From an uncultured Bacteroidales bacterium (GTDB taxonomy: Bacteria; Bacteroidota; Bacteroidia; Bacteroidales; Paludibacteraceae), in the NCBI GenBank assembly GCA_900317745.1, contig ONHW01000006.1:1-64000 (forward strand): a stretch of DNA of 64,000 nt. Reading direction: 5' to 3'. How positions within the stretch are numbered: position 1 is the stretch's first letter; each line of letters opens with the position of its first letter. Made by a program: the position numbers and the translations under genes. The notes under the pieces are model-generated. The model was not told the DNA's origin and searched no databases. It was given only the letters and a program-made list of their open reading frames with translations. Below, in pieces: positions 3,788 through 40,755 of the stretch.

Positions 3788-6700
3788 ATGAATCGTTTGC
3801 AATCATTGAGAATGAAGGTGAAAGGAGTATTAACTGTGTTGCCTGTAGTGTTGCTGATAGGTTTGGGCGTCGTTGGAACGCTTGCGCCTCAGCAGGCGTA
3901 TGCTCAGTCGTCGGTGCATGCGTCATCGACGGTGAATGACAGTGTTCCGTCCACGGGTAGGGACTTCTGGGTGACATTTATGCAGAATGCGGATGCTGAG
4001 ACTGCGGATAATGTCAAGCTTAAACTGGAAGTCATTGCTATTCCTACTGCAAGTGGTACAATCAGCCTCACGTGCGGTGATGGCACTCCATTAGTGACCG
4101 GCGGATCGTTGTCTGCGGGGACGCCATACGTGTATGAGATACCGGCTGACAAGCGGGATAAGGTGTATAATACCTCTTCTGCAACCAAAACGAGTAAGGG
4201 ATTGCATGTGGAGACCACCGGCACAGACATTGCTTTGTATGTGCGTAGTAAGTATGTTAACAGTCAGGCACTTAACTCCTACGACATGTCACCGGTGTTC
4301 CCGATTAAGACTTTGGGTGCGGATTATGTGATTCAATCGTATTGGGAAGACCAGACGAATACGGTGATGGCAGTTGTGGCAACAGAGAATGACACGAAGA
4401 TTACTATCAAGCCATCGTGCAAGACGCTGAACAGCGATAACACGACGTGGTCTGCTGCAGGCACGACAAGAATGGAAACGTTGAATAAAGGTCAGGTTTA
4501 TCTGCTGAAAGGCGAGAGTTTTGCCGAGGATGAGCCTTACACGAATATAGCGGGAACAACTGTAGGCGCCTCGAAGCCTGTGGCTGTTTTCAATGGCGGT
4601 GTTATTGCGTTTATACCGGATGGAACCGGTTTGAGCGGTGACCATATTTTCGAGCAGGCTCTTCCTGTCCATGCTTGGGGCAAACGGTTTGTGCTGATGA
4701 ATATGAACGCTTTCCCGACGGGCGTTTATGAGAAGAGTTCAAGCCCGACGGAGTTTATCATTACAGCGATATATCCCGACACTAAGGTGTATGTGGATGG
4801 TGAATACCTGCTGACCTTACAGCCGGGCGAGTCCACCCCCACATATGATGAGTCCACAACAATCTCTGTAGCGTGGAACGGGACTCCGAAGATGGTTCAG
4901 ACCTCCGAGCCTGTATCAATTTCCGGTTTCATGGTGAATGCCCAACACAATACGTACAGAAACACTCCGAGTGCTCCGAAGGGTATAGGTATTGGCGAGC
5001 CGTCCATGGTGTTGATTCCCGATGTTACGAAAGGTGTGTCAGAAATGTCCTACTATTGTAAGGACGTAAATACCGGAGCGACAACGGAACATTTGAATAC
5101 CCACTATGCGAATGTGATTGTCAAGAAGAGTGGCGTTGCAGGTATGCGTCTGCATAACGGTACGGAAGTAGTAAATATAAGTGGAAACTTTACTACTCTC
5201 TCGCAACCGTTCACCGGTCTTAGCGATGAATATGCATACGCACGTATACAGTTGACGGATGATGCGTTGAATAAGTTGTATAACGAAAATGATATACCGT
5301 TTGTTGCAACTATGTACAGCGTGCTTCCTGGACAGGCTATGTCGGAAGCAGCTGTGGCGACTATGAATATTGTGCCGTCTGCACCGAAAATGTTTGTTGA
5401 TGACAATGAAGTGGTTCATGGCACTACGTTTGATTATTGCAACAAGCATCCGGGTGTGCACTTTACTGCAATTGTTGACTATCCGCACACCGGTGTGAAA
5501 TGGGAACTTGGTGAAGGTGCTGAAAGTACAGACTACGAAGCATCGCACATGTATGGCGCTACTGTAGGTGAGTCGGATAAAAAGCACGATGTGTATCTGT
5601 ATGTTTTTCACGAGACACCTATTACCCATGTAAAAGATACTGATACAGTTCATGTTACGCTGAATGTGCACCCTGTCTATTATGATACATTGAAAACCAA
5701 GGTGGCTGCGAACAAGTTGGAGTATATATGGAACAAGAGTTCCAATCCGGCGTTTGGTTTGGCAGGCAAGGGTGAACTGAGTGTAGGCCCTGTAACGATG
5801 GGCAAGAACGCTCCCAATGCGAACAACAAATGGACGAGTGCCAATGACTCAAAGGTTATTTTTGACTCGTTGGTTTATGCAACGCGTCATGACTGCGACT
5901 CGATCTTCTACTTGCAGTTGCAGGTTGTGCCGGATATACTTATGCCGGCGGAGAACAGGACTATCTGCCAGCAAGAAGCTTTGGCTTGGGCCGGTCACGC
6001 CGCCGGAGCAGGGCATAGGATGAGCCGTAAGAACCTGACTACCAACGTTACAATTTATAATGTGAATGGTTCTGGCGCCGATATGTTCAAGACTGACGAG
6101 TACGGCACGTTTGAGATCCGGGATACGCTGGTATCGAAAGTGTTCCCGTATCCTGACTCGATTCATGTGATGAATCTGACCGTATATGTCAAGCCTACGA
6201 TGGGTTTGACTGCTCCGGACGCTATCTGCCAAACTGACGACGATAATTTGGAGGTGGCCTACACCACGACGGATGCCAACCGCTTCACGTACTCGCTGAA
6301 GAACAGCAGTAATGTGGAGGTTAAGAGCGGTACAATCAACTCGCCGGGTGCAACGGGTACGCTGACGATCACCGGTATGGGCACTCTGCCTTACGGTGCG
6401 TACAAGTTGTATGCCACGGCATACTCCGAGCACGACTGCAACAGCGTGGAAGCCTCTGTAGATGTGACGATTAATGTCAAACCGACATTGGCACTGGGCG
6501 ACATTGATCCGCAGTGTTATCCTGCCGCAGCGTTTGAGGTTAGTTACGACCACACGAATGCGACGAAAGTGTTCTACCGCGTGCTGCAAGGCGAGACGGT
6601 AAAGAAAGCATGGACAGAAGAGACTGTAGTTGCGGCTAAGAAGTTCACTATCAGTACCGAAGGTTGGAACGCCGCGACCTATACGGTTCAGGCGTATTCG

Positions 6701-9700
6701 CAGTCGGCCGACGGTTGCCAAAGCGTGCAGAAGGAAAAGACCTTCACCATCATTGTTCAGCCGACGGTAACAAGTGTTACGGTAGCTAATGCCTGTGATG
6801 CAGAGACTGCTACAGAACTTGCGTTCACTACGGCACATGCGGCAACGTACAACTATTATATTGTAGGACAAACCGCGCTGAAGGTTACTCCTGTAGCGAC
6901 AACGGACGGAGCGCACACAGCAGACCTGGATATCAGCATGCTGTCGGCGGGCGATTACACGCTGAAGATTGTAGCCAACTCGGCAACCTGCAAGAGTGAT
7001 ACCGTGGCGGTGAACTTCACCATCTATCCTATGCCTACGGCAACTATCACATCGTTGCCGGCAGACCTGAACGCTTGTGCACCGGGTACGAGCAACAAGA
7101 CGGTGAACTATACGACTACCAACGCTTCGCAGATCAAGTGGCAACTGACCACACCGCACGGCGTAAAGAACTATGATTACGCAGCAGTGGGTTCATCGTT
7201 GACCGTTCTGCAAGACTCGCTTGTATGCCCGGGTACGTACAAAGTAAAGATTACCGGCGTTAAGTCAGCCGCTCCGATGAACTGCGAGGTGCTTAATCCC
7301 GCAGGCGGTGAGGTGACGTTCACGATGTACAATCCGGCAGCAATCACGCTGAACGATATAGCTGCCGTATGCGCAGGAAATGCTGTAACGTCAACGTATA
7401 CAGCTGAATATACGGATTCATATACGTATGAGGTAAGGGGGAAAGCAGGCAGTGTGCTGAAAGGAAGTGGCAGTTCGACAACTATCGATGGTACGATAGA
7501 TTTGAGTAAGACAGATACACTTCCCGCAGGTACGTATGTGCTGAGCGTGACAGCCACGAATACCAACAACTGCGGTAGCAGCAGTGCGTCCAAAGAGTTC
7601 GTAATCAATCCTGCCCCCAAAATGTACACTTCGACTGCACCAAACTTCTGCAAAGGAACAAAGGAATCGTTAGATATTACGTTTGGCGGTACTAATGTAG
7701 ATACGGTTGCGTACGAGTTCCGCACTTTATTTACTAACGTTGTGATAGACAAAGGCAAGGTATTGGGCACGGCCGGAAAGTTAACCATACAGCACACCGA
7801 TACATTGAGTGCTCGCTCGTATGCAGTAGTTATGACCCCAATCTCTCGCCACGGTTGCGTGGGAAATATTATCTCTCCGAACTTTACCGTATATGCTGAA
7901 TCGAAGATCAATACGCTTGAACCGAAGGTTGTATGCTTCGGCGATGAGGAAGTAATAACAACATTCACAGCGACTAACGCTGCAACGTATAACTTCCAGT
8001 TGCTGAACAAGAACGGCGCAGTAGTGGCTGTCAGTCCGACCATCGCGGCAGGGCAAATAACGATTCCGCTCAGCACTTCGATGACGGCAGCATTGAGTCC
8101 GTACACGATGCGTCTGCAAGCCGTATCGGAACATGGATGCGAGAGCGACTGGAAAGAGGCTACGCTGACAATCAATCCGAAGCCCTCGAAAGTGACGAAC
8201 CTGAAGATCCCGACCGAGCCTTGTAAGGGCGAGAAAGCGATGATCTTCACCTACAACAAGAAGCCCAGTGAGGCAACTTCGGAATACTGGGCTCTGGATG
8301 ATGAGACCGTGACAGGCACGACGCTGAGCGATGGCGATTATTGCTACAGGAATGTGGATGTATCCGCATTGAGCGTAGGTACACACAAACTGCGCGTATG
8401 GGTGGAAAACGTTACTACCAACTGCGAGAGCGACCCTGTAGAGATCGAGTTCACCATTCATCCGCTGCCTGAGATTACTCTGCTAAAAGATACAGCATGT
8501 TGTGCAGGCGATGCGACAGTCATGGTGCGCTACGAATCGACCAATGCGAATAGTTACACCTATACCTTGACACCGGGTACCGGTTCGGGTTCCGGCAGTA
8601 TGGGGGCAAACGGTTACATTGAGGTGAACACCGCCGGTCTTGCAGCCGGCACGTACACGCTGACCGTGACCGCCCAGTCGGAGCATGGCTGTACTATTGC
8701 TACGCCAAAGACGGCAACGATAACGATCAACACCGTGCCGTCGATCAAGCTTAGCACGGTTGATGATTTCTGCGAAGGCACCGGTTCGGTGACCATCAAC
8801 TATACTGCTCTGACTGCCGCTACGGCATTCGACTATATCGTTAAGAGCGGCACAACAACCATTGATTCCGGCGAGAAGACCGGCATGGCTGCCAACGGCA
8901 CATTCACAATCAATCCGTCAAGTTGGGAGCCGGGTGATTATACCATCGAGTTGATTGCCAAGGCTAACGGTTGTGGCAGTCAGGGTGATGACCAAATGAA
9001 GTTTTTCACGATCAACCCGCTGCCGACCATCAGTGCAGACGAAACGGCAGTGACGCTATGCGAGAAGAATGACGATGCGGTATTCACGTTCACCACCAAG
9101 CACGCCGATACCTATAGCTACTGGCTGAGTGGCAGCGGTGCACCGACGTTCGCTGCATCGGATCAAGCTGTACCTGCAGGCGGCGTGGTAACCATCACCT
9201 GGCCTAAGGATGTACAGAAAGATGGCAACTTTACGCTGAACGTTACCGCCAAGAACGCTTGTGCTACCACGACGGCTGCTACCACGACGCTCAAGGTCAA
9301 CAACAAGCCCGAGATTATTTCGTTCTCGATTGACAGCCGTTGTCTGACATCCGATAACACGGTCGGGTACGACTTTGTATATGAGGTGTCGGCAGATGCT
9401 GCAAGGTATGACTTGCATGTATGGTCTGCAGACTTCAAGTCGTCACACGGTGGTGATGGTAACTTTGGGCTTCCCACATCGGGCACCGGCACGATTCACA
9501 AGTCATACTATCTGTGGGGCTCTCCCCTCATGGCTGGTGACTACAAGGCAGTGCTGAAGGTGCGCAACGATGCCCATTGCGAGAGTGATAGTGTGGTTGC
9601 TTCGTTCTCGGTATATCCTAAACCGACCTTGCCGACAGTAGTTGTGCCGGACGTATGTCAAGGAAAAAGCACGACGGAGAAAATCGTGTTCACTCACACC

Positions 9701-12700
9701 TACGGTTCGACATACGAATATTGGATCAAAGGCACTGATAAGCATGGTACGGGCAGTGTGACCGACGCAACGAGCGGTGAGCTGCATGCCAATATAATCG
9801 ATGTGCCGGCAGGCGAGCATACGTTGCGCCTGATCGTGAAGTCAGAAAACGGCTGCGCGAGCGATACGGTAGAGAGGAACTTCACCATCCACCCATGGCC
9901 GACGTGGAAGTGGATATCTACCGAGTCAAGCATCAGTGCTCCATATCCGATGGGTAATGTGTCGCTGAAGTTCAAGAATACGAACGGTACTGTTGCCTCC
10001 GGTAATTGGAATGTCGTGACAGAGGCTACAGTGAACGGCGGTAGTTTTGGTCCTGACAAATATGTTATCAGTGGCACTATCCCGACCGATTCGCTGAAGG
10101 CTGTAACAGGTCAGGATGACGGTGCGTTCACGATAGACTTTACGGGTGTTACCCCAGGTAGGTATCTGATATCGGCATCCGTAGCCACGGTTGATGGTTG
10201 CGGGTACACTATCCCCGGCTTGTGGATTACGATATATAACCCGACCAGTATAACGATTAATCATATAGACAGCATCTGCAAGGGTGAGACTCCTGTAACC
10301 ATAACCATCAACACCACGTATGCTGACACGTATTCGTACGCTGTAAAGGATGGTAACGGCAATACGGTAACTACAGGCAGTGGCACAACGACCAACAGCA
10401 ACGCCACTTCGGTCGCCAAGTCGTTTGACTTGACAACTGATACATGGGAGGCAGGTACGTACTCGATCACCGTATCTGCAACGAACAGTGTGACCCATGC
10501 TACCTGCGACGGCAATGCTACGTTCACCATCAACCCGATACCCGAACTGACATTCACCACCCCTGCTGCCATCTGTGAGAACGAGGTGAACAGCGTGAAT
10601 GTGGCGTTCACCAACAGCAATGCCAAGACAATCAAGTATCACGTAGATAAATTACTGCCGACACCTACAGCTGATATCATAGCTGAGCAGCAGATAAGCG
10701 CTAACGGAACTATTGCACTGACAGGTACAAACACCTGGGCTGACGGTACGTATCGTATATTCGCTACTCCGACTTCTCAGCATGGTTGCGTAGGAGAAGA
10801 GAAGTTTGTTGACCTGGTTGTCAATAATCAGCCTGAGGCTGCCATCACTGCTATGCCGGCCGATGTTTGCTTCAGTGACGCCTATCTGAATGTGACTTAC
10901 ACCGCGTCCACAGACGCGCGTGCGTACGCGTTCCGTATATTGAATGCTGCAACCGACCAACCTGTATCGGGTTATGCCGGTAACGGAACGATACAAGCTC
11001 CGTATGGTGGCGGTTCGTTTGCGGTGGATGTACACTCATTGTCAGTCGGCACGTACAAGATGGAACTCAAGACGCAGACCGAGCCCGGTTGCTGGAGTGA
11101 GGTCAGCCTGCAGCCGTTCACTGTTCGCGCCAAACCGGGAGCGACCATCGGTAAGATGGAGAGCGTTTGCGAAGGCACGGCAACAGCAACAGCAGAGTAT
11201 ACAACCACGAATGCAACGACCTATTACTACACAGTAAAGGGTACAAGCATTGAGGGAACCGGCACAACCACCGGCAGCGGTACGATATCCGTAGATGTAT
11301 CAACGCTGGTTGCGGCTAATTCGCCATATACCTTGCAACTCGTATCCAAGTCAACGTATTGCGAGAGTGATACGGCAGAGAAAGCGTTTGCAATATGGCC
11401 TATCCCTGTAGTGACTATCACCTCGATCAACGATGTATGCTTCGGTGATGCGACCACGACGGTTACCTATAGTCCGGATGCCAATGTCAGCAGTTGTACA
11501 TACACGCTGAAGCAAGGCACAACAATTCTGCTGGCAGACCAGCCTGTAACGCTCAATCCTGCACGTACGTTCACCATCAATACGAGTGCGTTGGCCGCAG
11601 AGACCTATACCGTAGAACTCACTCCGCGCTCGTCACACACCTGCACGGGAGCGATGGTAAGTTCGACGTTCAAGGTTAATCCGCTGCCTACACTGGGTGA
11701 TATCACTCTTGACGCTGCAGCAGTATGCGAAGGCACAGCCGCTATGGGCGCAACGTTTGCCCATACAGGTGCTACATCGTATGCATGGGAGTTGCGTCAG
11801 CAAGGTTCGACCACTGTGCTGCGTAGCGGCAATGCAACGGGCCTGGTAGATGCGACCAGTGCAATCAGCATTGATCTGCTTGCTCCTTCCGCCCTGGAGG
11901 CAGGCAAGACATACGACTTGAAGGTAGTAGTCAAGAACGATGCAACGGATTGCGAGCAGACGAAGACTGCTTTGTTCGTTATCCGCAAGAACCCTGTTGT
12001 GACCCTCTCGCCGGAAGGAACGCATATCTGCCAGCCTGTAACTGAGTTTAAGTTCAGTTACACGAATGAGGATAACCGAGCTACGGTCTTCCACTATCAG
12101 GTACTCAAGGGTACGGATGTGATCGTACCGATGGCAGACAAGATGGATATAGGTGCATCGGGCAATTGGACATTGCCGTTCGGTGCAGAATTGTTACAGG
12201 GTGAATACAAGATCCATGTGACGCCAGCCAATGCCAACTGTACAGGCGAAGAGAAGATTCTGACCTTCCACGTGGATACCGTTATGCCGAGTGTTACCAA
12301 TGCAACTATCTGCTACGGTGAGACGTTTGATTGGGTAGTGATCGGTTGTGACGGTATAACGCCTGACACGCTGATGCGAGGCTTGACAGCTACTACGCAT
12401 CAGTTGGATACCTTGTTCTGCGTAGGTGAGTGCGTCAAGGTATATGAACTTAACTTGACTGCTTATCCCGAGAACCTGATATCCGAGGAGCAGTACACGC
12501 TCTGCGCGGGTGAAACATACGCTTGGCACGGTCAATCGATAAGCAAAGCCGGTACGTACGAGGCGTTCGAGCCCGGTGGTGCTAACGGTTGCGATAAGGT
12601 TTACCGTATCGTAGTTGACCAAATAGTGCCGGAACAGAAGAGCGCCAGCCAGACTGTTTGCTACGGCGAGCCGGTGATCTTCAACGGAAAGACGTACACC

Positions 12701-15700
12701 AACCTGCGTGTAGGACCGCAAACTCTGCTGGATACCATCAAGTCGGTGGGCGATTGCGACTCTGTATATCTGAAGTTGAATCTGACGGTTGGTCAGCGCT
12801 ACTATGACTCGATTGTTGTAACCGAATGCAACAAGTATGTATGGGCTGTTAACGGCAATACGTACAACCACTCGGGTATCTACCGCGAGGAGATGGCTAC
12901 GGTTGACGGTTGTGATTCAGTATGTGTACTGAACCTGACTATTAACCCGAGTTACGAGTTCAATGAGACCTACGACATACTGAACACGCAGTTGCCGTTT
13001 ACGGTACATGAGTTCACCTATACCGCAGCCGGTACGTATGACCGCGAGTTTGTAAGTGTGGCAGGTTGCGACAGCATCTATCACATCACCCTTAACGTAC
13101 ACGAACTGCAGTTGCCGAAGGATACTACTACGGCTGCAATCTGCGCGGGTGCTACCTACACCTGGCAGGGTAACAACTATACTGCCGGAGGCTGGTACAG
13201 CGTGACGGAGAACGATGGTGTGAACGATGTGGCAATACATGTGCTGCACCTGAATGTAAATCCGACATACAGTGACACGACGTACGTTCATTCTTGCGGA
13301 ACATACAACTGGCGAGGCACGGATTACAGTGCATCGGGTATCTATCCTGTACTGTTGCCGTCGTCTTGCGGCTGCGACAGCACGGTTGTGCTCAAGTTGA
13401 CTGTAGGTGCTCCGACAGCAAGTACGGTGAACGTCACCGCTTGTCAGTATGAACCGACTACTGTCGGCAACCGCACATTCGTAGCAATGGCCAATACCTC
13501 GTTCACTGAGACATTGACCAACGCCGCCGGTTGTGACTCGGTAGTGACATACAATGTAACTGTAACTCCGCGCATTTATACTTCACCCGAGGATATGTAC
13601 TCGTTCTGCGAGGGAGAATCCTACACGTGGCACGGACATTCATACGACAAGCCGGGTACGTACTATGATTCGGTTGCAGACGCTAACGGTTGCACCACAA
13701 TTATACATACTCTGATACTTACTCAAAAGCAGGCATATCACTTCGAGGAGGATGTTGAGGTGTCCGAGTTGGCACTGCCGTACGCCTGGGTTGGTCATAA
13801 GGCTGACACGCTGCTGCGTACGAACGGTGACTACTACGACCGTTGGACCTCGCAGGTAACCGGTTGCGACAGTATCTACCATATCCACTTCCATGTGAAC
13901 TGGGTAATGCGTGATACGGTACAGAAGCAAGGCTGCGAGAGTGTAACGTGGAGCGTGAACGGACATTCATACACCTATACCGAGTCCGGTTTGTACTCCG
14001 ATACGCTCTTCACCGATGCCCCTGCCAACACGCAGTACGATGTAATACACTTCTGCGACGTGACAGTTCATCCGGCTTACCACGTTGTGGATCCTGATGT
14101 GACTGTCTGCCAGAACGAACTGCCGTACATATGGCGTGGACAGACATATTCTGACCTCACGGTGGGTGACAATGTGCGTTCAATCAATCCGAAGACAGTT
14201 AACGGCTGCGACTCGACATTCACCATCACGATACATGTGGTTAAGTCGTTCCGGGATGAGCAGACGTATGCTGCTTGTCCGAGCGAGTTGCCATATTTGT
14301 GGCACGGACAATTGCTTACCGTAGCCGGTGATTATACCGATGCCCATTCGTCTATCACGGGCTGCGATTCGACCTACGTGCTGCACTTCTCTGTCAAGGC
14401 GGTGACCGAGCCGGATGCAGAAAATCAGATCCATTGTCAGGGCGAACAAATCCAGTGGCACGGTTTGGACTTCGTAGCCAACGAACCGGGTGAGTATGCG
14501 TACTATGATTGGTATGTTCCCAATCCCGAGTGCCCGGACTATCAGACATATCACCTGCTCAACCTTACGGTAGGCGAGGTCTATGACGTAGATAGTGCCT
14601 TGACCGAGCATGTATGTCAGGGGCAGACGTTCCTGTGGTTCAATGCCGACCGTGCGGTAACGCAAGACAATGCACACAAGCTGGATGACCACACGTATGT
14701 AGAGACCTTCCATTATGAAGAGCAGACAGTTCTCGGCTGCGACTCGCTATCGGCTAATCTGACCTTGTACATGCACTTGCCGTACGAAAAGACGCTGGAA
14801 GATACGACAGTTTGCAACTCGTATGACTGGGACGGTCTGAACATCACCACGACCGGTGATTACGACAAGGTTTATCCGTTGCACGGCTTGACTTGTGCTG
14901 ACTCGGTGTTGCACCGCCACTTCACGGTATTGTACAGCGAGACGGAAACCATCACCGAGGATGTATGCGACTCCTACTATTGGGATAAGACGCAACAGGA
15001 TTATACCGAGAGCGGTACGTATGTACACAGCGTTCCGCAGATGGGCGGCTTGTGCGACAAGGTTTATACACTGAACCTCACCGTCCGCAAGAGTGTTCGT
15101 GATACGGTAACGATCAATAACTGGTGCCACGAGTTCACGTGGGCTGCTACGGGTACAACGTACCATACGTCAACGATAGACTCCGTTGTTTATCCGGGTG
15201 CTGCTGCATCTACGGGTTGCGACTCTATCGCTTATCTGCGCCTGACGCTTGTAACAGATACCGTCTTCCACCTGCCTGCAGTCACAGCCTGCGAGACCTA
15301 TACATGGACTGACGGTGATGGTATGACTTACACGGGCAGCACTACTGCACGCTATGCTACGACCTCGGTTGTAACAGGCTGCGACAGTATAGTATATCTG
15401 CCTATCACAATCAATCATCCTGTAGCAGTAACGCACAACCTGGAGGGTTGCCGCACACTGACCTGGAACGACGAGACGTTCACCGCTTCGAAGACAGGAT
15501 ATGTTCAGGTATTTGACTGTGACTCGGTAGTGACACTGAACGTAACGATTCATCAGCCGGATACCATCCACCACGTACTGCGCGCTTGCGAGAGTCTGAC
15601 CTGGAATAATGAGACATACACCTATTCACAGCAGGCACAGCAAGACTTCCTGTGCGACTCGGTTGTGATGCTTGATATCACGATTGACCATAACAAGGTG

Positions 15701-18700
15701 GAGGATGAGTACGTTACTGCATGGGATTCCTACACGTGGGAAGGCGACACCTACACCACGGAGGGATACAATGAGTACACCAAGACTCTGACGAGTGCGT
15801 GCGGTTGTGACAGCGTAGTGACCTTGCACCTGACACTCAACAGTTCGCAGAGCGGCGAGGAGACTCAACTTGCCTGCGAGTCGTTCGACTGGGCTTGGTC
15901 GGGCTTGACATATACGCTGTCAGGTGATTATGAAGTTAAGAAACGTATTGACGAAGGTCTGCCGACAGAGCGCGACTCGACACGTACGTTGCACCTCGGC
16001 ATAGGTCACAAGAAGTTCAAGGCTGAGACTGTTACCGATGTATGCGATGCATACGTATGGCACGGAACAGAGTATCTGACAAGCGGTACGTACACGTACG
16101 AGTACACTGATACCTGCGACGGTAACGTTGATACCTTGCACCTGACGTTGTACCACAAGTCCGTACCTGTTGAGCTCTATGACACTGCTTGCGATGTGCT
16201 GACCATCAACGGTAAATCGTACTTCAGCAACATTGACTTCACCGAGACGCTGCAGACCGTACACGGTTGCGACTCGGTAGTGAACTACCACCTGGTTATC
16301 CGTCATCGTCAGACGAAGAACATCAGTGCTCAGGCATGCGGCAGTTATGCATGGGAAGGCACGACGTACACCGAGTCCGGTGTATATAACAAGGTGCTGA
16401 CCGGAACTAACGGCTGTGATTCGGTAGTAACGCTGACGCTGAGTATCTTCCCGTCGTACAACCACGAGTTTGCGGCTGTAGGTTGCGGAGGTCACTACGT
16501 ATGGGATAACCGCATTTACGATGCCGAGGGCGACTATGTATGGAACTACACCTCTGTGAGCGGTTGCGACAGTACAGTTACAATGCACTTGACAATGCCT
16601 GCTGCAGTATCGTCAACGCTGGATACGACAGTATGTGACTACATCGACTGGAACGGCGTTCACTATACTGAAACCGGTTCGTATGAAGCCGTGTTCACAT
16701 CGGCAGTGACCGGTTGTGACAGTATAGCCAAACTGCACTTGAACATAGCCGAGCACCCGGCAGGTGAAGAGACTGTGGTAGAGTACACGCAGGCATACGT
16801 ATGGGGCGGACAGGTTTATTACCAATCCGGTGATTACACACGTCATATCGCATTGGATGACGGTCGTTGTGACAGTATAGCTACTCTGCACCTGACGATC
16901 ACCGATCCGCTGCCGTTGTCATACGAGTTCAGCGCAACGGCTTGCGATGCATACACATGGGATAGCGAGACGTTCTACGAGTCAGGAGTTTATGTTCGTA
17001 ACTTCCCGACTCTGGATGACCGCGACTCCATTGTCAAGCTGACGCTTACCATCCATCATGACACGACGGTATATGTGAGCGACAAGCATTGCATACCATA
17101 CACGTGGAACGACCAGACGATTACCGAGTCGGGCGTATATACGCAGGTTCTGGAGCGTGCATCGGGTTGCGACAGTGTGGTTACGATGACATTTATCTCG
17201 TGCGAGCGCTTTGAGACCTCGTTCACCGCTGAGGCCCGTGATGTATATACCTGGGAGGGTAATACGTACACGGAGAGTGGTGAATATACCCGTCTGTTCC
17301 AGTCGCGTCAGGGTTGCGACAGCTTAGTCACGATGTATCTGACTATAGTCAAGACAGTATATGCGACGGATAATGCTGAGGCTTGTACGCAGTATGCTTG
17401 GGCTGACAGTCTATTCACGCAAAGTACCGTTCATACGCACATCTTCCCGGCGGCTACCGGTGGCGACAGCGTGGTTACGATGACGTTGATCATCCATGAG
17501 CCTGTTCGTACCGAGTTGTTCGATACGGTACGCGAGCCTGATTGCAGTAATCCCGCATACACATATCCGTTGCCGTGGGCAGGTGGCGAATCGGTACAAC
17601 GTGCCGGTATATACACAACGACTCTGGCATCGGCTATCGGTTGCGATAGTATCGTAACGCTGCACCTGAGCTGGTGTGATGTTGATCCGTGCGTCGCAGA
17701 AACATCGTATCAGACTCTGACAGCATGTGACTCGGTACAATACGAGGGCTTGTGGTACAAGACTACTGGTTCGTATCCGTTGCATTACACCACCGATGCG
17801 GGCTGTGACAGCGTACATGTACTGCGCGTAGAGATTCAGCCTGTAGCACGTGCGCTGATAGATACAACGGCTTGCGACAGTATGTATTGGGCTGTTACCG
17901 ACAAGTGGTACTACCAGTCCGGATATGATTACGATACGCTGGTCGGCGGTGCTGCCAACGGCTGTGACAGTATAACGGTTATGCACGTAGTAATCGGTCA
18001 TGCGGGCGAAGGAACGCTGGATATAACCTCTTGCGACGCTTTGACCCTGAACGGTGAGACGTTCAAAGAGTCGGGTACTTATATCCAGCACCTGACTACA
18101 GTAACGGGTTGCGACTCGACGCTAACTATCAACCTGACGCTCAGTCCGGCAAAGGATTCGACCATTAGTGGCGTAGCTTGCGATGATACGGTTTGGAACA
18201 ACGTTTCCTACACTGCTTCGGGTTCGTATCCGCAAGTGCTGCAGACGGCAGAGGGTTGTGACAGCGTTGTGACGCTCAACTTGATCATCTATGGCAGCAA
18301 GGATATCAACTACATTGATACGATCCATTGCGACTCGATTGTTTGGGGTCCGGATCGTGAGGGTAATGACACCGTGATCTACGATGACGGAATCTATACT
18401 CGTACGTTCCTGACGGCAGTGGGCTGCGACTCGACGGTAACGATGGATCTGCGACTGTTGCGTCATGATCTTGTCATTGCACCGGATACGCAGGCTTGTG
18501 ATTCGTTTGTCTGGAACGAGAAAGTTTACTTCGAGTCAGGTACGTACAACGATACGCTGGTATCTTCGCGTACGGGTTGCGACAGTATAACCACGATGTT
18601 CATACAGATTGATCCGACGATCTATGTGGAGATTGAGGACAGTGTACCGCCTCCATTCTATCTCTGGCCGACGGAGAATGATACGATTTGGGAGAGCGGA

Positions 18701-19597
18701 GACTATGTGGATACCGTACCGTCGTTCATCACAGGTTGTGACAGTATCACTACTTTGCATCTGATCATGACTGATAGTATTATCCTTGATCCGCAAGAGC
18801 CGGTACGTGTTGATACCTTCGGCTATTGCCCGGGTGACACGATGAATTTCATCTACAACCTGCTGAAGGGTCATCCGACCAAGTACATACTGATCTTTGA
18901 CACCGTGGCTCCTCGTGTGCCGGATTACTCGCGCGACTTTATGTCCGTGCTGGATACGACGTACCTTGAGAATCATGGTCAGGACAGTCTGTTCACGGTT
19001 GTTATACCAGAGTTCTGCCCGGCGGGTGTATATTGCGCTCACCTGCAGTTGTTCGACGACTTCTCCAGCAGTGAGGTTTATGACTTCTGCATCCGCGTCA
19101 ACCTGAAGGGTGCTATCGTATCGATGTGGACGGATGTTATAGCGATCAACAACTTCAAGCAGGAATACTTCGGCTACCAGTGGTACAAAGACGACCAACT
19201 GTTGCCGGGCGCTACGAAGCAGTATTACTCCGACGGCGAAGACCTGAACGGCTGGTATCGCGCCAAAGTTCAGTTGGCAGACAGTTCGTGGGTATTCACT
19301 TGCGAGGAGTTCTTCGACCTGCGTACGGATTCGCTTGAACTGATTGCTTATCCGACACCGGCTCCAGTAGGTCAGCCTGTGACGATTAAGGCAATGGGTA
19401 TTCTGCTTGAGAAACTGGTAGGTTCACGTTTGACGATTACGAACGTTCAGGGCGTAACGATCAAGGAGTTCACACTTGAGCAGAACCAACGCAGCGTAGA
19501 TGTCGAACTCTCAGCCGGATTGTACATCGCTACACTCGTAACCGGCGATGCAGACGACAGAGCAAGAACTGCCAATGTGAAGTTCACCGTATTCTAA
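3788..19597 (+). CDS. Giant repetitive surface protein (5269 aa), probable type IX secretion cargo/adhesin
   Basis: Predicted extracellular, multi-repeat protein. Residues 1 to about 40 are a signal peptide ending AYAQ. Residues about 45-530 resemble the N-terminal IgGFc-binding domain family (GRDFWVTFMQN start, SKYVNSQALNSYDMSPVFP, VLMNMNAFPTGVYE). From about 800 to 2830 come roughly 22 Ig-like repeats of about 92 aa, most with two cysteines and ending FTI-x-P. From about 2833 to 4997 come 41 repeats of about 53 aa with a first Cys in an xACDSYTW-like strand and a second in GCDSVVTLHLTI. The last 80 residues (AYPTPAPVGQPVTIKA, then NVQG, then LSAGLYIA) look like a type IX secretion sorting domain. 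It has its own promoter and terminator. Ligand and function are unknown; adhesion is inferred from architecture. No frameshift was seen over 15.8 kb. Confidence 0.85.
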   Translation: MNRLQSLRMKVKGVLTVLPVVLLIGLGVVGTLAPQQAYAQSSVHASSTVNDSVPSTGRDFWVTFMQNADAETADNVKLKLEVIAIPTASGTISLTCGDGTPLVTGGSLSAGTPYVYEIPADKRDKVYNTSSATKTSKGLHVETTGTDIALYVRSKYVNSQALNSYDMSPVFPIKTLGADYVIQSYWEDQTNTVMAVVATENDTKITIKPSCKTLNSDNTTWSAAGTTRMETLNKGQVYLLKGESFAEDEPYTNIAGTTVGASKPVAVFNGGVIAFIPDGTGLSGDHIFEQALPVHAWGKRFVLMNMNAFPTGVYEKSSSPTEFIITAIYPDTKVYVDGEYLLTLQPGESTPTYDESTTISVAWNGTPKMVQTSEPVSISGFMVNAQHNTYRNTPSAPKGIGIGEPSMVLIPDVTKGVSEMSYYCKDVNTGATTEHLNTHYANVIVKKSGVAGMRLHNGTEVVNISGNFTTLSQPFTGLSDEYAYARIQLTDDALNKLYNENDIPFVATMYSVLPGQAMSEAAVATMNIVPSAPKMFVDDNEVVHGTTFDYCNKHPGVHFTAIVDYPHTGVKWELGEGAESTDYEASHMYGATVGESDKKHDVYLYVFHETPITHVKDTDTVHVTLNVHPVYYDTLKTKVAANKLEYIWNKSSNPAFGLAGKGELSVGPVTMGKNAPNANNKWTSANDSKVIFDSLVYATRHDCDSIFYLQLQVVPDILMPAENRTICQQEALAWAGHAAGAGHRMSRKNLTTNVTIYNVNGSGADMFKTDEYGTFEIRDTLVSKVFPYPDSIHVMNLTVYVKPTMGLTAPDAICQTDDDNLEVAYTTTDANRFTYSLKNSSNVEVKSGTINSPGATGTLTITGMGTLPYGAYKLYATAYSEHDCNSVEASVDVTINVKPTLALGDIDPQCYPAAAFEVSYDHTNATKVFYRVLQGETVKKAWTEETVVAAKKFTISTEGWNAATYTVQAYSQSADGCQSVQKEKTFTIIVQPTVTSVTVANACDAETATELAFTTAHAATYNYYIVGQTALKVTPVATTDGAHTADLDISMLSAGDYTLKIVANSATCKSDTVAVNFTIYPMPTATITSLPADLNACAPGTSNKTVNYTTTNASQIKWQLTTPHGVKNYDYAAVGSSLTVLQDSLVCPGTYKVKITGVKSAAPMNCEVLNPAGGEVTFTMYNPAAITLNDIAAVCAGNAVTSTYTAEYTDSYTYEVRGKAGSVLKGSGSSTTIDGTIDLSKTDTLPAGTYVLSVTATNTNNCGSSSASKEFVINPAPKMYTSTAPNFCKGTKESLDITFGGTNVDTVAYEFRTLFTNVVIDKGKVLGTAGKLTIQHTDTLSARSYAVVMTPISRHGCVGNIISPNFTVYAESKINTLEPKVVCFGDEEVITTFTATNAATYNFQLLNKNGAVVAVSPTIAAGQITIPLSTSMTAALSPYTMRLQAVSEHGCESDWKEATLTINPKPSKVTNLKIPTEPCKGEKAMIFTYNKKPSEATSEYWALDDETVTGTTLSDGDYCYRNVDVSALSVGTHKLRVWVENVTTNCESDPVEIEFTIHPLPEITLLKDTACCAGDATVMVRYESTNANSYTYTLTPGTGSGSGSMGANGYIEVNTAGLAAGTYTLTVTAQSEHGCTIATPKTATITINTVPSIKLSTVDDFCEGTGSVTINYTALTAATAFDYIVKSGTTTIDSGEKTGMAANGTFTINPSSWEPGDYTIELIAKANGCGSQGDDQMKFFTINPLPTISADETAVTLCEKNDDAVFTFTTKHADTYSYWLSGSGAPTFAASDQAVPAGGVVTITWPKDVQKDGNFTLNVTAKNACATTTAATTTLKVNNKPEIISFSIDSRCLTSDNTVGYDFVYEVSADAARYDLHVWSADFKSSHGGDGNFGLPTSGTGTIHKSYYLWGSPLMAGDYKAVLKVRNDAHCESDSVVASFSVYPKPTLPTVVVPDVCQGKSTTEKIVFTHTYGSTYEYWIKGTDKHGTGSVTDATSGELHANIIDVPAGEHTLRLIVKSENGCASDTVERNFTIHPWPTWKWISTESSISAPYPMGNVSLKFKNTNGTVASGNWNVVTEATVNGGSFGPDKYVISGTIPTDSLKAVTGQDDGAFTIDFTGVTPGRYLISASVATVDGCGYTIPGLWITIYNPTSITINHIDSICKGETPVTITINTTYADTYSYAVKDGNGNTVTTGSGTTTNSNATSVAKSFDLTTDTWEAGTYSITVSATNSVTHATCDGNATFTINPIPELTFTTPAAICENEVNSVNVAFTNSNAKTIKYHVDKLLPTPTADIIAEQQISANGTIALTGTNTWADGTYRIFATPTSQHGCVGEEKFVDLVVNNQPEAAITAMPADVCFSDAYLNVTYTASTDARAYAFRILNAATDQPVSGYAGNGTIQAPYGGGSFAVDVHSLSVGTYKMELKTQTEPGCWSEVSLQPFTVRAKPGATIGKMESVCEGTATATAEYTTTNATTYYYTVKGTSIEGTGTTTGSGTISVDVSTLVAANSPYTLQLVSKSTYCESDTAEKAFAIWPIPVVTITSINDVCFGDATTTVTYSPDANVSSCTYTLKQGTTILLADQPVTLNPARTFTINTSALAAETYTVELTPRSSHTCTGAMVSSTFKVNPLPTLGDITLDAAAVCEGTAAMGATFAHTGATSYAWELRQQGSTTVLRSGNATGLVDATSAISIDLLAPSALEAGKTYDLKVVVKNDATDCEQTKTALFVIRKNPVVTLSPEGTHICQPVTEFKFSYTNEDNRATVFHYQVLKGTDVIVPMADKMDIGASGNWTLPFGAELLQGEYKIHVTPANANCTGEEKILTFHVDTVMPSVTNATICYGETFDWVVIGCDGITPDTLMRGLTATTHQLDTLFCVGECVKVYELNLTAYPENLISEEQYTLCAGETYAWHGQSISKAGTYEAFEPGGANGCDKVYRIVVDQIVPEQKSASQTVCYGEPVIFNGKTYTNLRVGPQTLLDTIKSVGDCDSVYLKLNLTVGQRYYDSIVVTECNKYVWAVNGNTYNHSGIYREEMATVDGCDSVCVLNLTINPSYEFNETYDILNTQLPFTVHEFTYTAAGTYDREFVSVAGCDSIYHITLNVHELQLPKDTTTAAICAGATYTWQGNNYTAGGWYSVTENDGVNDVAIHVLHLNVNPTYSDTTYVHSCGTYNWRGTDYSASGIYPVLLPSSCGCDSTVVLKLTVGAPTASTVNVTACQYEPTTVGNRTFVAMANTSFTETLTNAAGCDSVVTYNVTVTPRIYTSPEDMYSFCEGESYTWHGHSYDKPGTYYDSVADANGCTTIIHTLILTQKQAYHFEEDVEVSELALPYAWVGHKADTLLRTNGDYYDRWTSQVTGCDSIYHIHFHVNWVMRDTVQKQGCESVTWSVNGHSYTYTESGLYSDTLFTDAPANTQYDVIHFCDVTVHPAYHVVDPDVTVCQNELPYIWRGQTYSDLTVGDNVRSINPKTVNGCDSTFTITIHVVKSFRDEQTYAACPSELPYLWHGQLLTVAGDYTDAHSSITGCDSTYVLHFSVKAVTEPDAENQIHCQGEQIQWHGLDFVANEPGEYAYYDWYVPNPECPDYQTYHLLNLTVGEVYDVDSALTEHVCQGQTFLWFNADRAVTQDNAHKLDDHTYVETFHYEEQTVLGCDSLSANLTLYMHLPYEKTLEDTTVCNSYDWDGLNITTTGDYDKVYPLHGLTCADSVLHRHFTVLYSETETITEDVCDSYYWDKTQQDYTESGTYVHSVPQMGGLCDKVYTLNLTVRKSVRDTVTINNWCHEFTWAATGTTYHTSTIDSVVYPGAAASTGCDSIAYLRLTLVTDTVFHLPAVTACETYTWTDGDGMTYTGSTTARYATTSVVTGCDSIVYLPITINHPVAVTHNLEGCRTLTWNDETFTASKTGYVQVFDCDSVVTLNVTIHQPDTIHHVLRACESLTWNNETYTYSQQAQQDFLCDSVVMLDITIDHNKVEDEYVTAWDSYTWEGDTYTTEGYNEYTKTLTSACGCDSVVTLHLTLNSSQSGEETQLACESFDWAWSGLTYTLSGDYEVKKRIDEGLPTERDSTRTLHLGIGHKKFKAETVTDVCDAYVWHGTEYLTSGTYTYEYTDTCDGNVDTLHLTLYHKSVPVELYDTACDVLTINGKSYFSNIDFTETLQTVHGCDSVVNYHLVIRHRQTKNISAQACGSYAWEGTTYTESGVYNKVLTGTNGCDSVVTLTLSIFPSYNHEFAAVGCGGHYVWDNRIYDAEGDYVWNYTSVSGCDSTVTMHLTMPAAVSSTLDTTVCDYIDWNGVHYTETGSYEAVFTSAVTGCDSIAKLHLNIAEHPAGEETVVEYTQAYVWGGQVYYQSGDYTRHIALDDGRCDSIATLHLTITDPLPLSYEFSATACDAYTWDSETFYESGVYVRNFPTLDDRDSIVKLTLTIHHDTTVYVSDKHCIPYTWNDQTITESGVYTQVLERASGCDSVVTMTFISCERFETSFTAEARDVYTWEGNTYTESGEYTRLFQSRQGCDSLVTMYLTIVKTVYATDNAEACTQYAWADSLFTQSTVHTHIFPAATGGDSVVTMTLIIHEPVRTELFDTVREPDCSNPAYTYPLPWAGGESVQRAGIYTTTLASAIGCDSIVTLHLSWCDVDPCVAETSYQTLTACDSVQYEGLWYKTTGSYPLHYTTDAGCDSVHVLRVEIQPVARALIDTTACDSMYWAVTDKWYYQSGYDYDTLVGGAANGCDSITVMHVVIGHAGEGTLDITSCDALTLNGETFKESGTYIQHLTTVTGCDSTLTINLTLSPAKDSTISGVACDDTVWNNVSYTASGSYPQVLQTAEGCDSVVTLNLIIYGSKDINYIDTIHCDSIVWGPDREGNDTVIYDDGIYTRTFLTAVGCDSTVTMDLRLLRHDLVIAPDTQACDSFVWNEKVYFESGTYNDTLVSSRTGCDSITTMFIQIDPTIYVEIEDSVPPPFYLWPTENDTIWESGDYVDTVPSFITGCDSITTLHLIMTDSIILDPQEPVRVDTFGYCPGDTMNFIYNLLKGHPTKYILIFDTVAPRVPDYSRDFMSVLDTTYLENHGQDSLFTVVIPEFCPAGVYCAHLQLFDDFSSSEVYDFCIRVNLKGAIVSMWTDVIAINNFKQEYFGYQWYKDDQLLPGATKQYYSDGEDLNGWYRAKVQLADSSWVFTCEEFFDLRTDSLELIAYPTPAPVGQPVTIKAMGILLEKLVGSRLTITNVQGVTIKEFTLEQNQRSVDVELSAGLYIATLVTGDADDRARTANVKFTVF
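6190..12285 (+). repeat. Block of about 22 Ig-like protein repeats in giant gene 1
   Basis: Each unit is about 92 codons, with a Cys near the start (for example DAICQTD, DPQCYPA, AAVCAGN), a TYxY-like strand, a xxGTYxLxVxA strand, a second Cys (EHDCNS, ADGCQS, NNCGS) and a closing FTINPxP. Sequence identity between units is low, indicating an old expansion. One unit (from about 9900) lacks the first Cys. Confidence 0.75.
12286..18780 (+). repeat. Block of 41 two-cysteine repeats of about 53 aa in giant gene 1
   Basis: Consensus strands are T-x-CDSYTWNGETY, ESGTYTxTL and GCDSVVTLHLTI. First-position Cys is missing in repeats 5, 10, 22, 29, 32 and 41. Second-position Cys is missing in repeats 6, 11, 23, 30 and 33. 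Thus each internal loss of Cys1 is followed by loss of Cys2 in the next repeat. Repeats 7 and 22 have an extra Cys just before GCDS; repeats 31 and 34 also have extra Cys. Unit edges were set by eye. Confidence 0.8.
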
Positions 19598-20138: not shown

Positions 20139-23100
20139 ATGAAACAATTTTTTACACGATTTTTAACGATGGCAGTACTCGTGATGAGTACGCTTTCTTT
20201 GAATGCCCAGCAGTTACCGGATCCCGGGTTTGAGGACTGGTCGGGTGCAAAGTTCGATGGCAATATTCAGCCTAAGTCATGGCACGCGTCGAACGTATCT
20301 CAAGTTGGTCAGTCATATAATTTCATTACCCGAGAAACCGGTCGAAGCGGATATGCTGCCAAAGTGGCTAACACTTTTTGCGGTTTGGGTAGTATTGGTC
20401 AAACATCGCCCGGATACTTGACATTGGGCTCGCCTTGGCAATACCTGCCAAGCATTACTCAACTTAGTAGTGCTACAGGTGGTACGGATGGAGGTATCAG
20501 TTTTACATACCGCCCCGACTCCATGTATGTGTGGGTTAAGCGTACAGGTTCAAAGGTAGGCTCTGAGCACTATAGTGTATTGTTCTATTCTTGGTCTGGT
20601 ACATCCAAGGGCACCAGTTACAAGGCAAACACGGCTAACTCGTGTACATCCACCTCGCACACGGATGAGGAGTCCGATATTCGTCAAGCCATGGATGCCA
20701 ATACCTGTGGTACGCCCACCAAGGCTAACCAGGTAGCAGAAGGATTCTTCTTTGAGAAGAAGGAACATAGCTCGTGGACACAAATCAAGCTGCCTATCTA
20801 TTACTTCAATGACGATGCTCCTACTAAGTGCAACGTTATCTTCTCATCTTCCGGCTATCCTAACTTTCGTAACAGTGATAATATTAATGATGGCAACGCA
20901 ATCTACGTAGATGATGTTGAACTGATTTATTCTTCGAAGATTCAGCAGTTGTATATCGGTGGTAAGGTGTGGAATGGTTTCGACCCTAACTCCTCTGAAG
21001 AGCAGACCTATTCAGTAGGTCACACAACCGAGGTTCCTGAGATTTATGCCGTACGTGGTGCCGGTACGCTGACGAATATAGCCGGCACAAAAGTATCTTG
21101 CCCGGGACGTAAGCTGTCAGGCAGCGAAATCACCATCAACTATGGTAAGGTGGATGGCGCTCCTACGGTTATTACCGTTAAGTCCGGTGACGGCAAGTCA
21201 ACCACAACCTACAAGATTAAGATGGTGCAGGCTGCTTCTGAGAATGCTACGCTGGCATCCATCCTTGTGAATGGTGAGGCTATCAGCGGTTTCAATCCGC
21301 AGTTGGGTCAGTACGATGTATCTCTGCCTTATGGCACAACGGCTGCACCGGTAGTAAGCGTTGTGCAGGCTGAGGATAAGCAGACGGTTGCTATCACGCA
21401 GGCCACATCGCCTACGGGCAAAGCTACCATCGTTGTCACAGCAGCCGATGGCAAGACCAAGAAAACCTATACCCTGAACTTTTCCATAGCTCAGTTGGCA
21501 GATAATACCCTCGCCGGCATCAAGGTGAACGGCGAAGAGATTGCCGACTTCACCCCCTCGCTTACATCGTACCGCGTCGAACTGCCTTTGGGCACAACCA
21601 CAATGCCGAAGGTCGAGGCTGTGTCGAAGTACCCCGCGGGAGCGCAGACAATCACGTACGAGGCGCCCGATAAGATCGATGGCGGTACGTACAAGATTAG
21701 TGTTACTACCCCCGGAAATGCTATTGCCAAAGTATATCGTTTGACCTTTGCCATCACGGCATCTACCAATAGCAAACTCAAAGATTTGCAGATGGAGGGT
21801 CAAGACCTTGGCTTCAGCCCGAACAAGACAACCTATTATGTTACCTTGCCGATGGGTACAACCGTATTACCCAAGATTACCTATGTCAAGGGGGATGCCT
21901 ACCAAACGGTGGAGGTCACCGAGGGTGGGGTGGATGGTACGACCACCATCCTCGTTACGGCTGCCAGCGGCGCGCAGACTACGTACAGGATCATCTGCTC
22001 GACCGAGAAGTCCGAAGCTTCGCACCTGAATATGATTTATGTAGGCGGCGTGGCATTGGAGGACTTCAATCCGAACACCACAACGTATACCTATCAGCTT
22101 ACCCCCGGCACAACCGAACTGCCGGAGATAACGTGGGAGAAAGGTGATGAGTACGAGACTGTCACCATCAACTATGGCGGACTGAATGGTACAACGCGTA
22201 TCACTGTTGTTGCCGGCAATGGCAATACTACCATCTACAAGATTACCTTCTCGCTCGAGCTGGCTGCCGATGTTACACTGGATGCCATCTATGTGGACGG
22301 CAAACTGGTAGAGGGCTTCAGCAAGGATGTATATACCTATCAGATTGTCCTGCCTAAGGGTACGGACGAACTGCCTGCCGTCACGTGGGATAAGCACGAC
22401 GAGACACAGACCGTTACGCCGCGGTATGGCGGTGTCAATGGTGATACGAAGATTACCGTACGTGCGCAGTCAGGGGCTACGGCAGTCTATACGCTGCAGT
22501 TCCGCGTGTATAAGGAGTCGGTCAATCACCTGAACATGATTTATCTGGATGGCGAACTTTTGTCGGGCTTTGACAAGGATACACTCAACTATATCGACTC
22601 GCTGCCGGTCGGCGTGAGCAAGATTCCTGCTATCACATGGGATTTAGGCGCTGCCAGTGCTACCGCACGACTCGTCAATCAGGGCAACCAGCGTATGATA
22701 CGTGTTACGGCTGAGGACGGCTCGGTGCGCGAATATGTGATTCTGTTCATCATCAGCAAGTCGGAGTCCGCATTCCCGAAGATGATCTATGTCGATGGTC
22801 AGCCCTTGCCGGGCTTTGACCCTAAGGAGTTGGAATATACCTACATGTTTGAGGGCGACAAGGCGCCGGAGATCACAGTGGAGAAAGATGGCAACCAGCA
22901 GGTTACTATCCTTACCCCCGTGCGCGATGGTGTAACTACCATTATCGTTAGCCCCGAAGGTGGCGGTGAGGGTAATACATACATCATCAATCTTATGCTC
23001 AAGCCGAAGGCTGCCGTGCAACTCAATGCTATCTTGCTGGATGGCAAGCTGCTGGAGGGCTACCAACCTGATCAGTTGGATTATGCGGTTGATTATTCCG

Positions 23101-29675: not shown

Positions 29676-29730
29676 TAGCCTTTGAAATAATAAAAATTTA
29701 TACATGCAGAAATTTTACTATAATCCTAAT

Positions 29731-31796: not shown

Positions 31797-31824
31797 CGAG
31801 AGACATTAAACACAAAATCTATTT

Positions 31825-34209: not shown

Positions 34210-34215
34210 TTACTA

Positions 34216-35604: not shown

Positions 35605-35673
35605 TGCGTTTAGTTAATTGTCATGTAGCGAGAACGACTGAATAAGAATCGCCGTTATTGAAAATATACTACT

Positions 35674-35760
35674 TGTTGGTAATTTTTGGTAATTGTTGAC
35701 CAAACATACAATTCTGCAATTTTTGACAAATTGTTGATAATTGTTGACTAAATAAAGTAA
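35674..35760. repeat. 10-bp-period AATTGTTGAC array, spacer before upxY-like gene
   Basis: TGGTAATT begins at 35677 and 35687. TTGAC, TTGAT and TTGAC begin at 35723, 35734 and 35744. The stretch 35687-35702 is the exact reverse complement of GGTCAACAATTACCAA at 37624-37639. Confidence 0.6.
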
Positions 35761-35855
35761 CCTGTATTCATAAGGCTAAGTTGTTGGCTGTGAATGCAAT
35801 AAACGAAGAATCTTTGTTCAAGGCAGCAGTGCTGCCGGACAACCTCTGTTCGAAA

Positions 35856-36482: not shown

Positions 36483-36483
36483 C

Positions 36484-37611: not shown

Positions 37612-37621
37612 TAGGGTTGAT

Positions 37622-37655
37622 TAGGTCAACAATTACCAACAATTATTTGCAATCT
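37622..37655. repeat. 10-bp-period GTCAACAATT array, left of the GxxExxY gene
   Basis: ACAAT begins at 37629 and 37639, and GCAAT at 37649, a strict 10-bp step. The orientation (GGTCAACAATTACCAA) is opposite to that of the array on the right side of the GxxExxY gene. Confidence 0.6.
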
Positions 37656-37667
37656 TGTGTGAAAGGA

Positions 37668-38099: not shown

Positions 38100-38130
38100 T
38101 GTTTGTCTATTTGATACTTCGAAAAATGGT

Positions 38131-38206: not shown

Positions 38207-38223
38207 ATTTAATCGTCATAACT

Positions 38224-39531: not shown

Positions 39532-39564
39532 CTAACGACACTTTTCTCTCAATACTCTGAAAGA

Positions 39565-40740: not shown

Positions 40741-40755
40741 CAAAAGAAAAAGGTA

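Follow-up and report, generated by a model that had tools for sequence, protein, structure and literature searches.

The window (the whole 64,000-nucleotide stretch of DNA analysed) encodes P0001, a 5269-residue protein. We consider it very likely that P0001 is a stalk exported by type IX secretion (T9SS) and headed by an IgGFc_binding domain, in which a disulfide joins Cys1 of each domain n to Cys2 of domain n+1 at every domain junction, so that the strands between the bonds behave mechanically as tie-rods. The evidence comes from the way the cysteines are lost in P0001 and its homologues, from residue couplings between neighbouring repeats and from the spacing of the cysteines along the chain.

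Results

Architecture and predicted secretion of P0001

The shaft of P0001 would consist of head-to-tail Ig-like domains followed by 41 reduced domains, the small repeats, which are about 50 residues each (Table 1). The N-terminal end is probably the distal end of the molecule. In the Ig-like domains C to W, Cys1 is found in 20 of 21 and Cys2 in 21 of 21. At the sorting domain the TIGR04183 match is borderline, reaching 22.8 bits in the protein scan against a cut-off of 23, and passing the cut-off in the genome search at the value given in Table 1. The genome search returned seven TIGR04183 matches, and the SprA translocon is encoded as well (2652 bits against a cut-off of 200). These matches point to P0001 as a type A cargo of the T9SS that would be anchored at the cell surface. 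The genome assembly comprises 2.6 Mb in 38 contigs.

Table 1. Position of the domains, repeats and cysteine losses of P0001 in the window. A residue named at a loss is the one at the expected cysteine site.
Feature	Nucleotides	Strand	Basis
ORF of P0001, predicted 5269-aa surface protein	3788..19597	+	Open reading frame
IgGFc_binding (PF17517), aa 168-510, N-terminal	4289..5317	+	Pfam, 137.8 bits against cut-off 25.6
Upstream repeats A and B	5669..6190	+	By eye, boundaries included; Cys sites are low-scoring pieces of the profile parse
Repeat A without Cys1 (A640), repeat B without Cys2 (P789)	5705; 6152	+	
Ig-like domains C-W (n = 21), aa 802-2829, 90-115 aa each	6191..12274	+	Cut by eye from domain starts
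Junction P/Q: P without Cys1 (~aa 2050), Q retains Cys 2240	9935..10507	+	
Array R1-R41, 41 small repeats, aa 2835-4995	12290..18772	+	Profile parse
Paired loss, R5 Cys1 (L3065) and R6 Cys2 (D3147)	12980..13228	+	
Paired loss, R10 Cys1 (S3326) and R11 Cys2 (Y3417)	13763..14038	+	
Paired loss, R22 Cys1 (W3979) and R23 Cys2 (R4062)	15722..15973	+	
Paired loss, R29 Cys1 (T4334) and R30 Cys2 (R4412)	16787..17023	+	
Paired loss, R32 Cys1 (R4484) and R33 Cys2 (G4559)	17237..17464	+	
R41 without Cys1, then C-terminal Ig-like domain X	18635..19117	+	R41 by parse, X by eye
Type A T9SS sorting domain (TIGR04183)	19349..19549	+	28.1 bits in genome search

Paired cysteine losses within P0001

All cysteines beyond aa 2700 were listed, and the repeats were delimited with a circular profile model in which the two cysteine columns score nothing, so that a lost cysteine alone could not hide a repeat. 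The parse bore out the 41 repeats counted in a sequence-only reading of this DNA. Forty of them were recovered as single units, repeat 15 was cut into two, and an 11-residue fragment was split off after repeat 2. Cys1 is missing from six repeats, the five in the paired losses of Table 1 and R41 (E4950 at the site), and Cys2 is missing from the five direct followers in those pairs. All eleven losses had been listed in the sequence-only reading, at coordinates that agree with ours to within about 10 bases, and its odds of 1 in 658,008 were reproduced on recomputation as C(40,5) = 658,008. R11 carries a cysteine six residues beyond the Cys2 site and was scored as a loss; cysteines one to four residues off the model column were scored as present (Cys1 of R2, R9, R18, R31 and R34; Cys2 of R14, R16 and R24). 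Domain X, after R41, has no cysteine that could be seen by eye at the Cys2 site.

Counted over the whole chain of 66 domains and 65 junctions (domains Z, A, B and X being post hoc assignments made by eye), Cys1(n) is absent at eight junctions and Cys2(n+1) at seven, all seven among the eight (hypergeometric p 1.1e-8). The sole exception is the junction of Ig-like domains P and Q, where the cysteine that Q retains lies near the Cys2 site. Two cysteines per repeat usually mark a bond internal to a domain, and a rival reading would be Cys1(n)-Cys2(n) disulfides, the paired pattern being a product of chance or of descent.

Co-loss of Cys1(n) and Cys2(n+1) in homologues

The repeat was found in 73 of the 101 genomes searched, the organism's own included. 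The homologue set consisted of the window and 105 loci. Seventy-four of these were the best 74 of 487 confirmed matches, chosen with a DNA motif that contains Cys2 (CDSVVT), a choice that could bias the loss rates but hardly the pairing of the losses; the other 31 came from searches that used a protein or a repeat profile rather than the DNA motif. Among the best 74 of 487 matches, the loci closest to P0001 carry Bacteroidales and Paludibacteraceae titles, many of them from the rumen, and the records include Flavobacteriales, Chitinophaga, Saprospiraceae and one Glaciecola. The repeat profile matched 138 ORFs, of which the 136 with at least two hits were parsed and two single-hit ORFs were not. 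The parse yielded 2898 units, 2253 at score 20 with both cysteine columns and at least 38 columns, and 2042 at score 28, a threshold that drops R1, R2, R14 and R15 of P0001 itself. Ten loci that duplicate the window or L004 (L001-L003, L005-L009, L011 and L012) were excluded from all counts. The first, untuned run took units from score 20 and accepted Cys1 at -4 to +4. Once the exceptions had been inspected, this Cys1 window was widened to -4 to +8, and scores 20, 28 and 33 were then reported. Tables of counts are written [[both kept, second alone lost],[first alone lost, both lost]].

At a score of at least 28, the 2042 units gave [[1532,2],[29,71]] for Cys1(n) and Cys2(n+1), an odds ratio of about 1,900, and at score 33 the counts were [[1393,1],[12,57]]. 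The association was already strong with the untuned settings ([[1658,7],[69,84]], odds ratio 288), and the widened Cys1 window made it stronger. It was present both in the 31 profile-found loci alone ([[147,0],[4,13]]) and in the 74 motif-chosen loci, the best of 487 matches, alone ([[1356,2],[25,53]]). The sequence-only reading had called for just this comparison of co-loss with the alternative pairings, and at a score of at least 28 the alternatives were flat. By Fisher p-values, which count related pairs as independent, no association was seen at that score within the repeat ([[1690,97],[246,9]], p 0.23), between Cys2(n) and Cys1(n+1) ([[1413,150],[67,4]], p 0.4) or between Cys1(n) and Cys2(n+2) ([[1219,57],[71,1]], p 0.36). 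The within-repeat pair showed none at score 33 either. What favours the within-repeat bond in these data is a weak association at score 20 ([[1780,124],[313,36]], p 0.017); a further one appeared in the untuned run between Cys2(n) and Cys1(n+2) ([[1306,144],[65,18]], p 0.0025), and neither comes near the main effect. Bonding of Cys2(n) to Cys1(n+1) is disfavoured, since the two are not lost together at score 28 or 33 and their columns do not couple.

Cys2(n+1) is retained in 29 of the 100 internal Cys1 losses. In 23 of these 29 cases repeat n opens its array, and several such units read as Ig-like domains that fit the repeat model poorly; in the other 6 repeat n is internal. In both losses of Cys2(n+1) alone a cysteine near the Cys1 site is retained off-column. 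Of the 83 ORFs that pass the filter, 42 have no Cys1 in their last repeat, as against 100 of 1634 internal units, and about half of the last repeats retain it, while the first repeat lacks Cys2 in only 4 of 42, as against 73 of 1634 internal units. The first repeat of P0001 follows an Ig-like domain with its own Cys1, which would explain the difference between first and last repeats. Nineteen loci bear titles outside Bacteroidales, Paludibacteraceae and RUG, in part given to phylum or class only; their 258 units and 203 pairs held no double loss and three losses of Cys1 alone, a small sample for the pairing rule.

Independence and order of the losses

The 71 double losses are spread over 31 sources, namely the window and 30 loci, and form 21 sequence groups at 45% identity. 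Descent from one duplicated loss was rejected on account of these 21 groups. Clustering at the level of whole proteins is too coarse for a judgement of independence, as 113 of the 136 ORFs fall into one of 18 clusters. With one protein per cluster, and thus with few proteins, the counts for Cys1(n) and Cys2(n+1) at score 28 were [[119,0],[3,11]], and [[90,0],[3,6]] (p 7.5e-8) when the cluster of the window was excluded; 10,000 within-array shuffles of this small sample gave a mean of 3.9 double losses and a highest value of 10, against 11 observed.

The six internal losses of Cys1 alone (in L070, L060, L057, L046, L061 and L069) resemble the R32/R33 junction of the window, and at junctions of this kind both cysteines are lost in the window, L042 and L063. 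At the Ig-like junction resembling P/Q, Cys1 alone is lost in the window and L046 and both are lost in L042. These two junctions in relatives suggest that Cys1 may be lost first and the orphaned Cys2 later.

For the Ig-like domains, a larger-domain profile gave [[91,0],[3,2]] for Cys1(n) and Cys2(n+1) (p 0.002) and [[89,4],[3,0]] for Cys2(n) and Cys1(n+1). The within-domain control was also associated ([[103,7],[8,4]], p 0.013), probably due to poorly fitting units. Since the control is associated too and this small test is not clean, we take the pairing in the Ig-like domains as a hint only.

Residue couplings and the probable fold of the small repeat

Mean-field DCA drew on 1623 rows of two repeats each, with an effective number of 693, and considered column pairs at least 4 apart. 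The top coupling of all column pairs is Cys10(n)-Cys36(n+1), that is, Cys1(n) with Cys2(n+1), at z 10.4. It vanishes at lag 2 (z -0.1), at lag 3 (z -0.5) and with shuffled halves (z -1.3), and no coupling was found for Cys36(n)-Cys10(n+1) (z 0.1) or for the within-repeat pair (z -0.3). Rows with both cysteines present gave z 8.5, a value that was discarded because the pseudocount lends invariant column pairs apparent coupling; a W15-W15 coupling was not taken as a contact because it is seen at lags 2 and 3 too. The partnership of Cys1(n) with Cys2(n+1) proposed in the sequence-only reading is supported by this coupling and by the co-loss in homologues, from which we infer the disulfide.

The next-strongest inter-repeat coupling, N47(n)-N34(n+1) with z 6.4, would set the end of strand G, at the foot of domain n, beside the F-G turn of domain n+1. 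Within the repeat, the clearest ladder has columns 25-31 antiparallel to columns 37-43 (the F-G hairpin). Columns 15-20 run antiparallel to 24-29 (C-F), and columns 2-11 parallel to 39-48 (A-G), a ladder that some other registers equal in height (parallel 8 and 10, antiparallel 55 and 70). On this map each repeat looks like a small sheet domain. The earlier reading had described an interlocked, disulfide-laced fibre rather than separate domains; the lacing of the repeats is supported, and the denial of separate domains is not, since the couplings show an antiparallel hairpin and a parallel A-G pair in each repeat. By these ladders Cys10 stands opposite residue 47, and about 11 residues of strand G separate that level from Cys36. 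With Cys10 at the lower end of strand A and Cys36 at the upper end of strand G, the two would lie too far apart to bond each other. In the Ig fold the A-B loop is found at one pole and the F-G loop at the other, and in a tandem chain the poles of neighbours meet. This arrangement fits the coupling map.

In bead models built with no cysteine restraint, Cys10(n)-Cys36(n+1) is the nearest of the three pairings at 18-20 Å, which is not a bonding distance, and the within-repeat pair is 26-27 Å apart. With the N47-N34 contact included, the best 8 of 24 runs gave 18 Å for Cys10(n)-Cys36(n+1), 27 Å for the within-repeat pair and 29 Å for Cys36(n)-Cys10(n+1). The best penalty was 9 with no forced bond, 7 with Cys10(n)-Cys36(n+1) forced, 10 with Cys36(n)-Cys10(n+1) and 27 with two within-repeat bonds. 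The models are too coarse to separate the two inter-repeat pairings. Within-repeat bonding carried the highest penalty, but two bonds were imposed in that case and one for each of the other pairings. Together with the flat controls at scores 28 and 33, the coupling of z -0.3 and the 21 groups of double losses, these model results make within-repeat disulfides with a chance or inherited pattern exceedingly improbable.

Covariation would be the same for a contact within a chain and for one between chains in register, and a swapped Cys1(n)-Cys2(n+1) disulfide between bundled neighbour chains, which would yield a cross-linked sheet or rope, would leave the same trace. We consider this unlikely to be the case in P0001, as the N47(n)-N34(n+1) coupling and the parallel A-G pairing already place both sites close together in a single chain, and an interchain bond would require an exact stagger of one repeat along a varied array. 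Covariation also reveals contact and not chemistry, so the cysteine pair might bind a metal or make a cross-link other than a disulfide. In line with this, the genome, 95.6% complete, gave no match at E 0.001 to DsbA (PF01323), Thioredoxin_4 (PF13462), DsbB (PF02600) or VKOR (PF07884). Among the 12 strongest listed inter-repeat couplings, neither Cys10 nor Cys36 is joined by a third column, so no additional ligand is evident. For Bacteroidota, the T9SS and the gliding machinery are reported to contain disulfides (PMC12635249), so an oxidising route exists. We give a metal or another cross-link only a slim chance of being the correct reading.

Pfam returned no family for the folded P0001 repeat fragment. 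When 119 five-repeat stretches were compared with Pfam, 68 families matched some member, and among the 25 families listed none matched more than 7 stretches, PKD_4 matching 3. Big_13 reached 17.1 bits in the second half of P0001, under its cut-off; in the first half Y_Y_Y, WxLIP_HBD and DUF3244 pass their whole-protein cut-offs and no single stretch passes alone. A PDB sequence search gave one match with E 0.24, and a PDB search gave weak matches that were nearly all antibody light chains among the 60 listed (best E 7e-4), which were not counted as evidence.

Proposed lacing and its mechanics

In the intrachain disulfide model that we prefer, Cys1 of domain n would lie just past strand A, in the A-B loop at the lower pole, and would bond Cys2 of domain n+1, which would lie in the F-G turn at the upper pole. 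The model predicts about 35 such bonds among the 41 small repeats and about 20 farther upstream. The segment from Cys2(n) to Cys1(n+1) would then comprise strand G of n, the linker and strand A of n+1, a tie-rod fixed at both ends. If J(n) denotes the bond between n and n+1, this segment would join J(n-1) to J(n+1) and span two domains, and from this topology the lacing should cap the extension of the shaft. A pull would be borne by strands that are already extended, and unfolding of a domain would free little length.

The spacing from Cys2(n) to Cys1(n+1) is 23 residues in 1206 of 1413 cases (sd 0.56), and the spacing from Cys1(n) to Cys2(n) is variable (sd 2.69, n = 1690). A residue in a strand spans about 0.34 nm, so 23 residues would cover about 7.8 nm per two repeats, close to the expected folded length of two domains. 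The constant spacing agrees with a tie-rod, and the fold alone could also produce it. We put forward more tentatively, as a possibility that we hold with somewhat less than even confidence, that the whole shaft is a covalent truss of two-domain tie-rods that overlap by one domain and are fixed by disulfides. Even when fully unfolded, the shaft would then grow only a little, since each repeat would offer about 11-12 residues of chain rather than about 49. Anaerobic Bacteroidota would have to form dozens of these bonds in every molecule, by means of an oxidant that belongs to none of the DsbA, DsbB and VKOR families.

Discussion

Several known systems resemble P0001 in part. A disulfide between adjacent Ig domains is known from Siglec, an animal receptor with a single interdomain bond, whereas the proposal for P0001 is a repeated lacing. 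RTX adhesins leave the cell by type I secretion, the Rib domain derives from an Ig-like parent fold, and SprB is an adhesin of great size. The 51-domain adhesin of Mobiluncus mulieris (PMC10619420), a Gram-positive example, resembles P0001 in being a single giant chain of tandem Ig-like domains that is covalently cross-linked, a disulfide included. Cross-linked adhesin stalks are already known; in that account, however, each isopeptide, ester or disulfide bond is internal to a domain and the interdomain linker is called flexible, whereas the bond in P0001 would join neighbours. The extender domains of RTX adhesins (PMC7493085) are likewise tandem beta-sandwich repeats with stiffened linkers, the stiffening there being due to Ca2+ in the linkers and in P0001 to the proposed cysteine pairs, with type IX secretion as the presumed export route. 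The Rib domain of streptococcal surface proteins, described in PMC6936399 as a case of domain atrophy used in tandem, may be likened by description to the P0001 repeat. SprB of Flavobacterium johnsoniae is, like P0001, a Bacteroidota surface adhesin exported by the T9SS; it is treated in PMC12635249 as a type B substrate carried by SprF, whereas P0001 has a type A sorting domain, and the disulfides described there attach carrier to track, whereas those proposed here would attach repeat to repeat. The motif GCDSVV was found in none of the open-licence PMC papers searched, and among the open-licence PMC titles and abstracts in the matches listed none describes the P0001 repeat or an interdomain disulfide lacing of a bacterial stalk.

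The analysis gives a testable bond map that draws only on sequence, and it does so for a large family of repeats that has no Pfam model of its own. It raises the question of how an organism without a recognisable DsbA, DsbB or VKOR would form such bonds. The map points to a way of strengthening a stalk by bonds across the joints between domains, unlike isopeptide bonds or calcium. If the lacing is true, this gut-type Bacteroidota bacterium would carry a long stalk that could hardly be stretched by unfolding.

Cysteines of P0001 and thiol oxidants

Searches of the whole source genome returned no profile match for DsbA, Thioredoxin_4, DsbB or VKOR, and in this genome the 5269-aa surface protein P0001 would by itself account for dozens of predicted disulfides. 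P0001 also has cysteines beyond the two-Cys pattern of its repeats R1 to R41, at aa 2854 and 2878 (both R1), 3046 (R4), 3194 (R7), 4005 (R22), 4472, 4630 and 4635.

Genes downstream of P0001

The second giant ORF contains six stretches matching Cadherin-like (PF12733). Judged by its gene content, the gene group that lies beyond it looks like a surface polysaccharide cluster, and the ABC transporter of this group has a sub-threshold match to Wzt_C. The 15-base tandem repeat presumably encodes a Tyr- and Gly-rich tail of the Wzz/AAA_31 protein.

Features in the window and repeat sites on other contigs (C9, C16, C20) of the source genome, G000
Feature	Location	Description
Second giant ORF	window 20139-29423	3094 aa; immediately downstream of the P0001 ORF
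Gene group	window 29704-43353	OmpA-family protein, Wzz/AAA_31 protein, sugar transferase, GDP-mannose dehydratase, epimerase, UDP-galactopyranose mutase, ABC transporter
Tandem repeat	window 34091-34188	15-base unit GCTATGGTTATGGTC; 3' end of Wzz/AAA_31 gene
Repeat site	G000:C9:3531-3800	within an 893-aa open frame
Repeat site	G000:C16:16884-17318	within a 2097-aa open frame
Repeat site	G000:C20:189749-190072	within a 1044-aa open frame

Distribution of the repeat

The P0001 repeat is also present on three more contigs of the source genome. Among the homologous loci, one on a chromosome that the record title assigns to Glaciecola amylolytica (847801-867935) has 21 repeat-profile matches, all in one ORF. 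Glaciecola is a gammaproteobacterial genus, and the repeat possibly reached this locus by horizontal transfer.
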